Source of the DNA: Treponema sp. | GTDB taxonomy: Bacteria; Spirochaetota; Spirochaetia; Treponematales; Breznakiellaceae | Direction of reading: 5' to 3' | Length of the DNA: 43,209 nt | NCBI GenBank assembly: GCA_009785215.1 | Contig: WQWU01000018.1 | Span: forward strand, 1-43,209 | Part shown: in pieces, positions 25,565-42,296 of the stretch | Position numbering within the stretch: position 1 is the first letter of the stretch | How the letters are laid out: every line of letters starts with the position of its first letter | Program-made: the position numbers and the translations under genes | Notes under the pieces: generated by a model | Told to the model about the DNA's origin: nothing | The model's input: the letters and a program-made list of their open reading frames with translations, nothing else | Database searches by the model: none

Positions 25565-25593
25565 TTGCTCAAATTTTGCTTTTTAGCTATGAT
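25565..25593 (+). promoter_or_regulatory. Candidate promoter giving a leaderless mRNA
   Basis: TTGCTC (25565-25570) and TATGAT (25588-25593) are 17 bp apart; the -10 matches 5 of 6. Six bases follow the -10 before the ATG at 25600, which is where transcription should begin. No Shine-Dalgarno sequence precedes that ATG. Together these suggest a leaderless transcript for the plus-strand pair. Confidence 0.5.
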
Positions 25594-25599
25594 TTATCA

Positions 25600-25842
25600 A
25601 TGCATATAAGCGAATTTTTTTTGGTTTTTCCTGAAGGTGATGTTCAGGAAATACAGGGGCGCCTGCCGTTTAATGCCCTTGTTGATATGAATGGCAATGT
25701 ATTAAGGCTGCCCCTGCCTACCAATAAAATGATTGTTTTTAGGGTTGCAGGCATAAAAACAGAAGAAAGAAAAGGCGTAAGCGAAACTTTTCATTTTCTG
25801 GATTTACTAAGCGCAGAGGAACTGCTTGAGTACACAGCCTAA
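25600..25842 (+). CDS. Small protein of unknown function
   Basis: An 80-residue soluble protein, not recognised. It begins MHISEFFLVFPEGD and has several short hydrophobic strands (NVLRLPLP, KMIVFRVAGI), suggesting a compact beta-rich fold, then an acidic C-terminal helix (LLSAEELLEY). No signal peptide or metal motif is seen. A TTG at 25576 would add eight residues but would sit upstream of the proposed start point. The end overlaps the next gene's TTG start by 17 bp, with AGAGG placed for coupled re-initiation. The pair diverges from mraZ. Confidence 0.65.
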   Translation: MHISEFFLVFPEGDVQEIQGRLPFNALVDMNGNVLRLPLPTNKMIVFRVAGIKTEERKGVSETFHFLDLLSAEELLEYTA

Positions 25843-26557
25843 ATCCAAAGGACTTCTCGCGGAGGCGCAGAGACGCAGAGGTAATATAGGAATAAAAAAT
25901 GAGAGCAGTTTGCATAAAACTCTTAAATTCCAATATACAGGTGACGGGGGAAAAACCGAAGAAAATGTCGGCAGCTTTGTCGCCGATGGAATAAGAAAAG
26001 ACGGCGAATATATCGAGGTTCAAACAGGCAGTTTTGCCCCTTTAAAAAAGAAAGTAAAAGCCTTTGCCGCTTTGGGAAAAGTGCGTATTATTCACCCAAT
26101 TGCTGCTGCCAAAAAAATTGAAGTTTACGATATTAAAGGAAAGCTCCTTTACAGGCGAAAAAGCCCCGTACACGGCTCTTTATGGGATATTTTTGACGCT
26201 CTTCTTTCTGCCCCGGAGATTCCTCTAATTAAAGGCGTTACAGTAGAAGCCGTCATCGTAGATATTACCGAAAAACGGATAAAAGACGGCAAAGGCTCAA
26301 GACGCCGGAAGGGCATCAGCAAGTTTGACAAAGAACTGGCTGCTTTTCATGAACGCCATGTCTTTGGCAAAAAATCTGATTATTTAAAATATTTTATTCC
26401 GTTTAAAAAAGGCGAAGAATTTACTGTATCTTCCCATGCTCAAAAAGCAAATATAAAAAGGCATTTCTCCCAAAAAGCGCTCTATGTTCTTACCAAAATG
26501 AAGATAATAAAAAGAATCAGAAAGGAAAAACAAGCCTGGGTATATGTCCGCAGTTAG
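25826..26557 (+). CDS. PD-(D/E)XK-like protein with C-terminal winged helix, unknown function
   Basis: A 243-residue basic protein. After a short lead, SSLHKTLK is followed by FVADGIRKDGEYIEVQTGSF and then a Lys-rich helix; the spacing D-(8)-E-x-Q-...-K matches the PD-(D/E)XK nuclease fold, with Asp, Glu-x-Gln and Lys as candidate metal site (inference). Residues about 195-243 (KKGEEFTVSSHAQKANI, YVLTKMKIIKRIRK, AWVYVR) look like a winged helix. Proteins of this layout occur as uncharacterised families in several phyla. The start is TTG at 25826 with AGAGG upstream. Residues about 10-19 are encoded by a repeat fragment. The stop overlaps that of ptsI. Confidence 0.75.
   Translation: MSTQPKSKGLLAEAQRRRGNIGIKNESSLHKTLKFQYTGDGGKTEENVGSFVADGIRKDGEYIEVQTGSFAPLKKKVKAFAALGKVRIIHPIAAAKKIEVYDIKGKLLYRRKSPVHGSLWDIFDALLSAPEIPLIKGVTVEAVIVDITEKRIKDGKGSRRRKGISKFDKELAAFHERHVFGKKSDYLKYFIPFKKGEEFTVSSHAQKANIKRHFSQKALYVLTKMKIIKRIRKEKQAWVYVRS
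25854..25890 (+). repeat. One-arm fragment of the pgk-flanking repeat family
   Basis: The sequence starting TTCTCGCGGAGGCGCAGAG closely matches the terminal arms of the elements at 40605-40768 and 42118-42280, but only one arm is present and there is no matching inverted arm nearby. It is read in frame in the overlapping gene as LLAEAQRRRG, near the N-terminus. Confidence 0.8.
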
Positions 26558-40604: not shown

Positions 40605-40768
40605 TTCTCGCGGAGACGCGGAGATCGCAAAGAACGCGGAGAAGAAATAAGGTATCGTTGTTTGAAAGCATAGCTAGATATTCTCATAATAAGCTTACAA
40701 ACAACAACCCCTTTTCTCTCTCTGCGTCCTGCGCCCTACGAACCGAAGGTTCGACGCCTCTGCGAGAG
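40605..40768. repeat. MITE-like hairpin element, copy 1 (between pgk and tpiA)
   Basis: A 164-bp element with imperfect terminal inverted arms of about 50 bp: the left begins TTCTCGCGGAGACGCGGAG and the right ends GACGCCTCTGCGAGAG. The right arm carries a nested hairpin, CGAACC-GAA-GGTTCG (40739-40753). Inner ends pair as GTTGTTTG with CAAACAAC. It encodes no protein. Its reverse complement aligns with copy 2 at both ends (the first 38 bases are identical) while the central 50 bp or so differ. Confidence 0.85.
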
Positions 40769-40782
40769 TCTCTTCGACTCTC
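40764..40782 (-). other. Stem-loop directly after pgk
   Basis: On the minus strand GAGAGTC, a 5-nt loop and GACTCTC form a perfect 7-bp stem 2 nt after the pgk stop. It overlaps the edge of the repeat element. No T-tract follows, so it is more likely an mRNA 3'-end stabiliser than a terminator. Confidence 0.45.
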
Positions 40783-40784
40783 TA

Positions 40785-42086
40785 CTAACCCCTGCAGACT
40801 TCGATGCCAGGTAACTTTTTGCCTTCCAGCAATTCCAACGATGCGCCGCCGCCTGTAGAAACATGGCTCATCTTCTTAGCCAAGCCAAACTTGTTAACTG
40901 CCGCAACAGAGTCGCCGCCGCCAACTACAGTTGTTACGCCTTTACCTGTTGCTTCTGCAACAAGATTTGCAACTTCTTCTGTGCCTTTTGCAAAAGCATC
41001 AAACTCAAATACACCGACAGGTCCGTTCCAAACGATTGTCTTTGCAGTTGCGATAACTTCTTTGTATTTCTCTACTGTTTTTGGCCCAACATCCAATCCC
41101 ATTAAATTATCAGGGAGGTCAAGACCGTCTACAGGAACAGCAGCAGCGGCGGCGTCAAACGAGGTGGCTCCCAAATGATCCAGCGGAAGTACTATCTGCG
41201 AATTAGCGCTTTGTGCAGCAGCTAGTATTTTCTTTGCGGTATCAATCTGATCATCTTCTACTAAAGATTTACCAACTTTATAACCTTGCGCTTTTAGGAA
41301 AGTATATGCCATGCCGCCGCCGATAATAAGCGCACTTGCATTTTTTAACAAACTTTCTAAAACTGCAATCTTGGAAGAAACTTTTGCTCCGCCGATAATT
41401 GCAACTAACGGTTTTGCAGGGTTTGTTACGATAGGTTCAAGATAATTTACTTCTTTTTCCATTAAAAAACCTGCAACTGCAACAGGAACAAACTTTGCGA
41501 TAGAAGCTGTAGAAGCGTGGTCACGGTGAGCTGTACCAAAAGCATCGTTTACAAACACATCGCCGTAGGTAGCAAGTTCTTTTGCAAGCTTGTCTAAATC
41601 CGCTGCTTCTTTGGCAGTTTCTTCTTTATGGAAACGGGTATTTTCAAGCATGATTACGCTGCCGTCAGCTTGGCTTTCTATGAATGCTTTTTTACCGTAA
41701 CATCCATCATCAGGAGGGGAACCTTCGCCCTGCGGGCTCGGCTGAGGAGCACCAGCGAATACTACAGGTTTACCCAACTTTGTTTGTAAGTAAGCTGCAA
41801 CAGGAGCCATGCGGTGTTTACCCTTGATATATGTATCTTCATCAAAAGACTTTCCGTCTTTCTCGCACTTTTCTTTTGCTTTTTTTGCGTCCTTGGAAGG
41901 ATCTCCAAGGTGAGACATAAGCGTTAAAGATTTAACACCCTGCTCTAAAATATATTGAATGGTAGGAAGCGCTGCGGTGATACGAGTATCATCCTGCACT
42001 ACCCCGTCTTTCATAGGCACGTTAAAATCGACACGCATGATTATGCGTTTGCCTTTCAGGTCAACAGTTTTAACAGTTTTTATCAC
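40785..42086 (-). CDS. pgk: Phosphoglycerate kinase with a GC-rich insertion
   Basis: A 433-residue kinase that makes ATP from 1,3-bisphosphoglycerate. It opens [14 protein letters not shown], with [37 protein letters not shown], the hinge [12 protein letters not shown] and the nucleotide loop [12 protein letters not shown]. Compared with the family, residues about 112-127 ([16 protein letters not shown]) are an added Pro/Gly-rich loop, encoded by 41706-41753, which is visibly more GC-rich than the gene around it. A second, Lys-rich loop at 62-92 seems usual in treponemes (recollection). The start is GTG at 42086 with AGGAG six bases upstream. Repeat elements flank it on both sides. Confidence 0.97.
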
Positions 42087-42117
42087 ATCATTCTCCTAAA
42101 ACATTATTCTAATTTTA

Positions 42118-42280
42118 CTCTCGCAGAGGCGTCGAACCTTCGGTTCGTAGGGCGCTGAGGACGCAGAGAGGAATAAGGGTTCTTGTCCGAAACCTAAGAG
42201 TGATACATCACGCTATACTCTCGAACAACAACCCCTTATCTTTCTCCGCGTTCCCTGCGTCTCCGCGTCTCCGCGAGAAA
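42118..42280. repeat. MITE-like hairpin element, copy 2 (between gap and pgk)
   Basis: A 163-bp element in the opposite orientation to copy 1. The left arm begins CTCTCGCAGAGGCG and holds the nested hairpin CGAACC-TTC-GGTTCG (42133-42147); the right arm ends CTCCGCGTCTCCGCGAGAAA. The arms can pair over about 50 bp if the nested hairpin is extruded. No coding potential is credible. As in copy 1, the element ends exactly 32 nt before the GTG start of the downstream gene. Confidence 0.85.
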
Positions 42281-42296
42281 TCTTCCTCTTCTGGAA

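Follow-up and report, generated by a model that had tools for sequence, protein, structure and literature searches.

In the stretch of DNA analysed here (the window, i.e. 43,209 nucleotides from contig C18 of a draft 1.9-Mb Treponema sp. genome that is 75% complete), an arm of a genome-wide repeat lies in frame at the very start of a conserved gene, where it encodes the residues LLAEAQRRRG; a recognisable version of this peptide is found in orthologues from related species and is absent outside their radiation. To the account as a whole, namely that an in-frame arm of a MITE/REP-like palindromic repeat sits behind an old, coupled TTG start and ahead of the conserved part of the protein, we assign a probability of about 0.74. 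The closest named relatives of the genome are Treponema MAGs, sets that we take to be of termite-gut origin (isolate names e.g. Emb289, Co191), and the genomes compared were draft MAGs.

The gene start, the repeat arm and the host protein

The features concerned are the following:
25576-25842, forward strand: upstream ORF of 88 aa, the end of which overlaps the TTG start by 17 bases
25816-25828, forward strand: RBS-like AGAGGA plus TTG start, which overlap the last bases of the upstream gene; orthologues that lack the extension have them too
25826-26557, forward strand: gene for a protein of 243 aa, with a repeat-derived N-terminal extension, a putative PD-(D/E)XK-like domain and a C-terminal winged helix
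25845-25882, forward strand: repeat arm, consisting of the left flank and three CGCRGAGR units; 52.4 of 57 bits
25853-25882, forward strand: codons for LLAEAQRRRG (residues 10-19) in the reading frame of ORF 25826-26557
25886-25912, forward strand: codons for the conserved IG..NESSL block (residues 21-29)
residues 10-19 of the 243-aa protein: repeat-derived N-terminal extension
residues about 21-181: putative PD-(D/E)XK-like domain
residues 181-243: C-terminal winged helix
about 40608-40790 and 42117-42282: two-armed elements, one in each of the gaps that flank pgk

The segment 25845-25882 is an arm of an octamer repeat, (CGCRGAGR)n, that is dispersed over the genome: with <=3 mismatches allowed, the 23-mer CGCGGAGGCGCAGAGACGCAGAG matches 33 places in the 1.9 Mb and the reversed control pattern 0. 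A position profile was derived from 41 further arms of this genome, the window copy being left out (consensus CAGGAAGAGCTCTCGCGGAGGCGCAGAGGCGCAGAGGA, maximum 57 bits), and in the whole 43 kb it has its top match at the gene start, ahead of the undoubted copies near 42255 and 40608; a score of 52.4 bits excludes a chance resemblance. Like the copies in cysS, dus and gltX, it is a single arm. That a repeat arm is read in frame as LLAEAQRRRG at the start of this gene (N-terminal stretch MSTQPKSKGLLAEAQR, junction GNIGIKNESSLHK), as the sequence-only reading had proposed, is thus borne out, its coordinates (25854-25890) having been a few bases off. The structure model predicts a helix at residues 10-18, outside the conserved fold. 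The coding sequence of the upstream ORF near 25814 (GCGCAGAGGAA) resembles a repeat unit by coincidence.

The TTG at 25826 is the sole in-frame ATG, GTG or TTG before the block that opens with IG at residues 21-22, a pair invariant in 45 aligned orthologues. Because this TTG is the only usual start ahead of the invariant IGxxxE block, we infer that LLAEAQRRRG belongs to the protein and must be translated, and a start downstream of the repeat, one of two options left by the sequence-only reading, has to be rejected. By the alignment, the conserved protein really begins with the IG..NESSL block. In several orthologues, the same peptide is preceded by ATG codons (L002, MKKTNPKKGLLAKAQKRK; L003, MVKSLLAEAARFRKS; L009, MTKKSLLAEAQRFKKS; L010, MGKKSLLAQAQRFRRS). 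The other option, that the repeat had created the translational coupling, fails as well: the AGAGGA...TTG arrangement overlapping the upstream stop is found in orthologues that lack the peptide (L014, L015, L017, L019, L020, L022, L024 and L025), and the coupling is therefore older than the insert. The ...LSAEELLEYT-type ending of the upstream ORF is likewise seen in orthologues; this 88-aa ORF (25576-25842) is conserved, of unknown family and coupled to the gene studied. In L010, a different repeat-like tract, reading NHTNCTNFC..NHTNHANFC, lies just upstream of the orthologue's start.

The host protein is matched in 156 of 200 genomes of the family and hits zero families above cut-off in Pfam and NCBIfam. 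Its AlphaFold model is confident (pLDDT 93.8) and has two domains. Since searches with the full model (Foldseek and VIA-align) gave nothing beyond winged-helix matches, the N-terminal domain was modelled and searched by itself; Foldseek then returned zero matches at E <= 0.001, and the top of the structure-match list consists mostly of PD-(D/E)XK folds, among them YaeQ (Z 6.7, 114 residues, 4.6 A), SfsA (Z 6.5, 111 residues, 3.1 A), PaqCI (Z 5.7, 112 residues, 4.3 A) and EndoMS (Z 5.3, 93 residues, 3.3 A). With all Z below 8, these matches suggest a PD-(D/E)XK-like domain. The residues D54, E64, Q66 and K76, invariant in the 45 aligned orthologues, are suggestive in the same sense, being compatible with the fold although they spell E-x-Q rather than the E-x-K of the PD-(D/E)XK motif. 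It is the N-terminal domain and not the repeat that resembles proteins of the YaeQ/SfsA type, from which the host protein differs by its extra C-terminal winged helix. The earlier label "nuclease-like" is a fair one at the level of the fold (Z 5-6.7).

Distribution and descent of the peptide

The peptide is present in 11 genomes of the same genus, including that of the window (G000, G156, G171, G159, G157, G161, G180, G168, G165, G179 and G164), so that the species-specific event implied by the sequence-only reading gives way to a recognisable version (LLAEAQRF and similar) in the orthologues of 10 other genomes. In the remaining orthologues of the genus, and in every orthologue examined from other genera, the start leads directly into xxIGTxxESSLH or through unrelated residues. 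These proteins begin about 3-15 residues before the invariant IG of IG(T/I)xxESSLH and not, as had been predicted for orthologues without the repeat, near SSLHKTLK. Distant orthologues lack the peptide, and its absence from other genera rejects an ancestry common to the whole protein family. An orthologue with 64% identity comes from a MAG titled Brevinematales (L071), which is probably a mislabel; the contig is the same as that of L022/G166, placed in a Treponema-type genus.

On a four-gene tree, all 11 carriers fall inside one clade of 24 genomes with 100/100 support and an unresolved backbone. The trait changes 6 times on this tree, with at least 3 changes forced by well-supported branches, and 5 times on the gene tree, so that one origin would have to be combined with several losses or with transfer; with 5-6 changes on such a backbone, a single clean origin could not be shown. 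At the same time, LLAEAQRF[KR] is near-identical in G157, G180, G168 and G164 although the cores of these proteins differ strongly, which favours common descent with losses or transfer over many independent origins. The flanking residues GLL..NIGIK are common to the window, L002 and L007. Moreover, G157, G180, G168 and G179 carry only about one copy of the repeat family each and still have the peptide; a recent insertion on the spot is therefore an improbable source of it in these genomes, where it has probably been retained.

Whether the DNA of the relatives still bears the mark of the repeat was addressed in several ways. When whole loci (2.2-3.7 kb, several thousand positions each) were scanned with the profile that lacks the window copy, L006, L002, L008, L010 and L007 gave their top match at the extension, which ranks second in L016; in the whole loci of L003 and L011 it is not the top match. 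The extension of L006 scores 24.2 bits against -1.8 for the next-best position, that of L002 21.6 against -5.8. When the DNA was shuffled synonymously, with peptide and codon usage kept fixed, the observed repeat score was reached with p 5e-5 for the window, 0.0019 for L006, 0.0035 for L002, 0.031 for L004 and 0.115 for L010, and a DNA signal beyond the peptide was absent from L003, L007, L008, L009, L011 and L016. At the level of the peptide, 0.5-3% of random 9-mers match translations of the repeat equally well for most rows, and L004 and L011 do no better than chance in this test; the match of the nine residues by itself is weak, being modestly significant. Together, the locus scan and the synonymous shuffle support descent from the repeat in the relatives.

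Traces of insertion can also be read from individual sequences. In L006, AAAATC flanks the 27-nt insert on both sides, with a similar situation in L016 and L008, and it may represent a target-site duplication; alignment rows with a single KS and no extension (e.g. L005, L019) could correspond to the empty site. The sister orthologue L004, from a genome with about 79 repeat copies, has a second, fresh in-frame repeat shortly after the old LLVKAQK (LLVKAQK...LTQRHKGAKNTEK). At four-fold sites the window gene is 29-51% identical to its relatives and its repeat copy is almost perfect; given this saturation, the copy looks younger than the peptide that the species share. Probably it was refreshed by recombination with, or by re-insertion of, one of the dozens of copies in the genome.

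The repeat family in other genes and genomes

One strand of the octamer CGCRGAGR is free of T and the other free of A, so that none of its six frames can contain a stop codon, as computed for all 64 R-combinations of three units; this property would account for reading frames that stay open after insertions of 3n bases. Judged at selected loci of the window's own genome, arms are in frame in cysS (L039), uvrC (L058), gltX (L050), ispE (L040), dus (L042), a B12/radical-SAM gene (L054), a U32 peptidase (L060), an HrpA-like helicase (L038), a Gfo/Idh oxidoreductase (L045), a DEAD-box helicase (L047) and a znuA-like leader (L032). The residues derived from the repeat align to a gapped stretch of GltX (4GRI) and to a poorly conserved stretch of CysS (3SP1), both of which are presumably solved Borrelia proteins.

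Elements recur at the same sites across species. One occupies the same position in a loop of uvrC (L163-L182) in G000, G159, G161, G169, G156, G162 and G171, as well as in G158, which lies outside the 24-genome radiation; both arms are readable in several of these genomes, and each copy resembles the subfamily of its own genome (CGCGGAG in G000; CACAGAG/CACGGAG in G159, G161 and G156). Likewise, gltX (L133-L149) has an element at a shared site in many same-genus genomes, each copy again being like the genome's own subfamily. Such same-site copies point either to insertion hotspots or to refreshment by gene conversion (concerted evolution). In the gltX of G160 (L141), the repeat-derived insert is followed by a long acidic run, EEEEEEGIGKRGEEEEEEEEGREG, inside glutamyl-tRNA synthetase. 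The family is patchy in the phylum, with exact matches in 33 of the 296 Spirochaetota genomes sampled. Two-armed (inverted) elements occur in the flanks of pgk, in uvrC and in ispE; the copy at 25845 and several others are one-armed. Between the pgk-flank arms at 40713-40769 and 42117-42173, complementarity is 86%. At the contig end, positions 7-158 of the window hold a tandem array of AACAGGC/AACAAAC-like heptamers.

These observations bear on what happened at the gene start. The strongest competitor of the preferred account holds that the site is a hotspot, which the repeat entered independently in several lineages, recently in that of the window and always in the same frame. It would account well for the nearly perfect window copy amid saturated synonymous sites, for uvrC and gltX copies that follow each genome's own subfamily, for the second insertion adjoining the first in L004 and for the scattering of the trait on the tree; against it stand the nearly identical LLAEAQRF[KR] of genomes almost without repeats and the GLL..NIGIK flanks that the window has in common with L002 and L007, as vertical descent predicts, and we consider it unlikely, with about the odds of a one-in-five draw. 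Convergence, in which an LLxEAQRF helix of non-repeat origin was made repeat-like in the window by gene conversion or drift, would fit the modest match of the peptide alone and the orthologues in which no repeat signal exceeds the peptide. Yet in L006 and L002 the likeness of the DNA to the repeat goes beyond what the peptide requires, five orthologues have the best repeat match of their whole locus at the extension, and two independent coincidences would be needed, which makes this explanation highly improbable. The chance of a gene-calling artefact, with the repeat in a leader and the protein beginning downstream, is close to nil: TTG is indeed a weak start codon, but no other in-frame start precedes the IG block and L002, L003, L009 and L010 have an ATG just upstream of the same peptide.

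According to the preferred account, an arm of an interspersed palindromic repeat would have been inserted in frame between the coupled TTG start and the conserved PD-(D/E)XK-winged-helix protein, at the latest during the radiation that gave about 24 presumably termite-gut Treponema species. Any insertion of 3n bases stays open and adds a short, charged, helix-prone peptide. In this gene, 11 genomes would have retained LLAEAQRxR as a short helix at the N-terminus, probably under selection. The absence of the peptide from other genomes would reflect losses, one old insertion followed by losses being the course of events that we would envisage, or else several gains. The window copy would later have been refreshed by recombination or re-insertion, a pattern also seen in uvrC, and the insert would be a tolerated appendage; it made neither the start nor the coupling. 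Somewhat short of an even chance, and hence tentative, is a broader generalisation: that in termite-gut Treponema the six-frame-open repeat returns again and again to the same permissive sites in essential proteins of many species, or is renewed there by conversion, and that in at least one gene the resulting peptide was exapted as a conserved N-terminal helix, which outlives the repeat family in genomes that have lost it.

Relation to known systems and significance

The Rickettsia palindromic elements (RPEs; Ogata et al. 2000/2002) are interspersed palindromes located between genes and in frame in conserved housekeeping genes (PMC2229807, PMC10969869, PMC3767692); at one locus, orthologues can each have an insert, in some cases from another subgroup (PMC3767692), and the inserts are presumed to be tolerated, with a guanylate kinase assay cited in PMC2229807. 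The Treponema repeat behaves alike in being in frame in cysS, gltX, uvrC, ispE, dus, the radical-SAM gene and others, and in occupying the same uvrC and gltX loci in orthologues with differing subfamilies. The resemblance to in-frame palindromic insertion in Rickettsia, which the sequence-only reading had noted, therefore holds for conserved genes of this spirochaete, and of that interpretation both the N-terminal sequence supplied by the arm and the recurrence of such insertions stand, whereas the new coupling, the later start and the restriction to one species do not. RPEs are palindromes of about 100-150 bp; of the Treponema repeat, many copies are two-armed, and the copy at issue and several others have one arm. 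The Treponema repeat differs in its phylum (Spirochaetota, not Rickettsiales), in its tandem octamer core open in six frames and in its often single arms. It works like an RPE, without being classed as one, the likeness being one of behaviour and not of aligned sequence.

The protein-coding palindromic repeats of Wolbachia (Ogata et al. 2005, as cited in PMC2229807) are similar by description and not by aligned sequence; they also reside in an insect-associated bacterium, of a different phylum. MITEs of the ERIC, YPAL and NEMIS type are likewise short repeats whose open frames can be fused with ORFs of the host, but those reviewed are mostly intergenic (PMC2229807), whereas the Treponema repeat is found in at least 10 conserved genes of one genome and at recurring sites. 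Of what marks a MITE (terminal inverted repeats, a target-site duplication and a related autonomous transposon), inverted arms are seen in many copies, and L006, L016 and L008 may have an AAAATC duplication.

In-frame repeats in many Treponema genes constitute a wider phenomenon, of which the gene start studied here is one case and which is apparently so far undescribed; literature searches, with most subscription journals outside their coverage, returned no description of the repeat in Treponema. Mobile repeats that encode protein sequence are familiar above all from Rickettsia and Wolbachia, and as a rule they are linked with the genome decay of obligate intracellular bacteria. The same behaviour in gut spirochaetes offers a new, densely sampled system for studying how selfish repeats turn into protein sequence. 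With a stop-free octamer and same-site copies in many of the species sampled, this system also lends itself to deciding between insertion hotspots and gene conversion. The N-terminal peptide is a candidate case of retention after loss of the repeat family.
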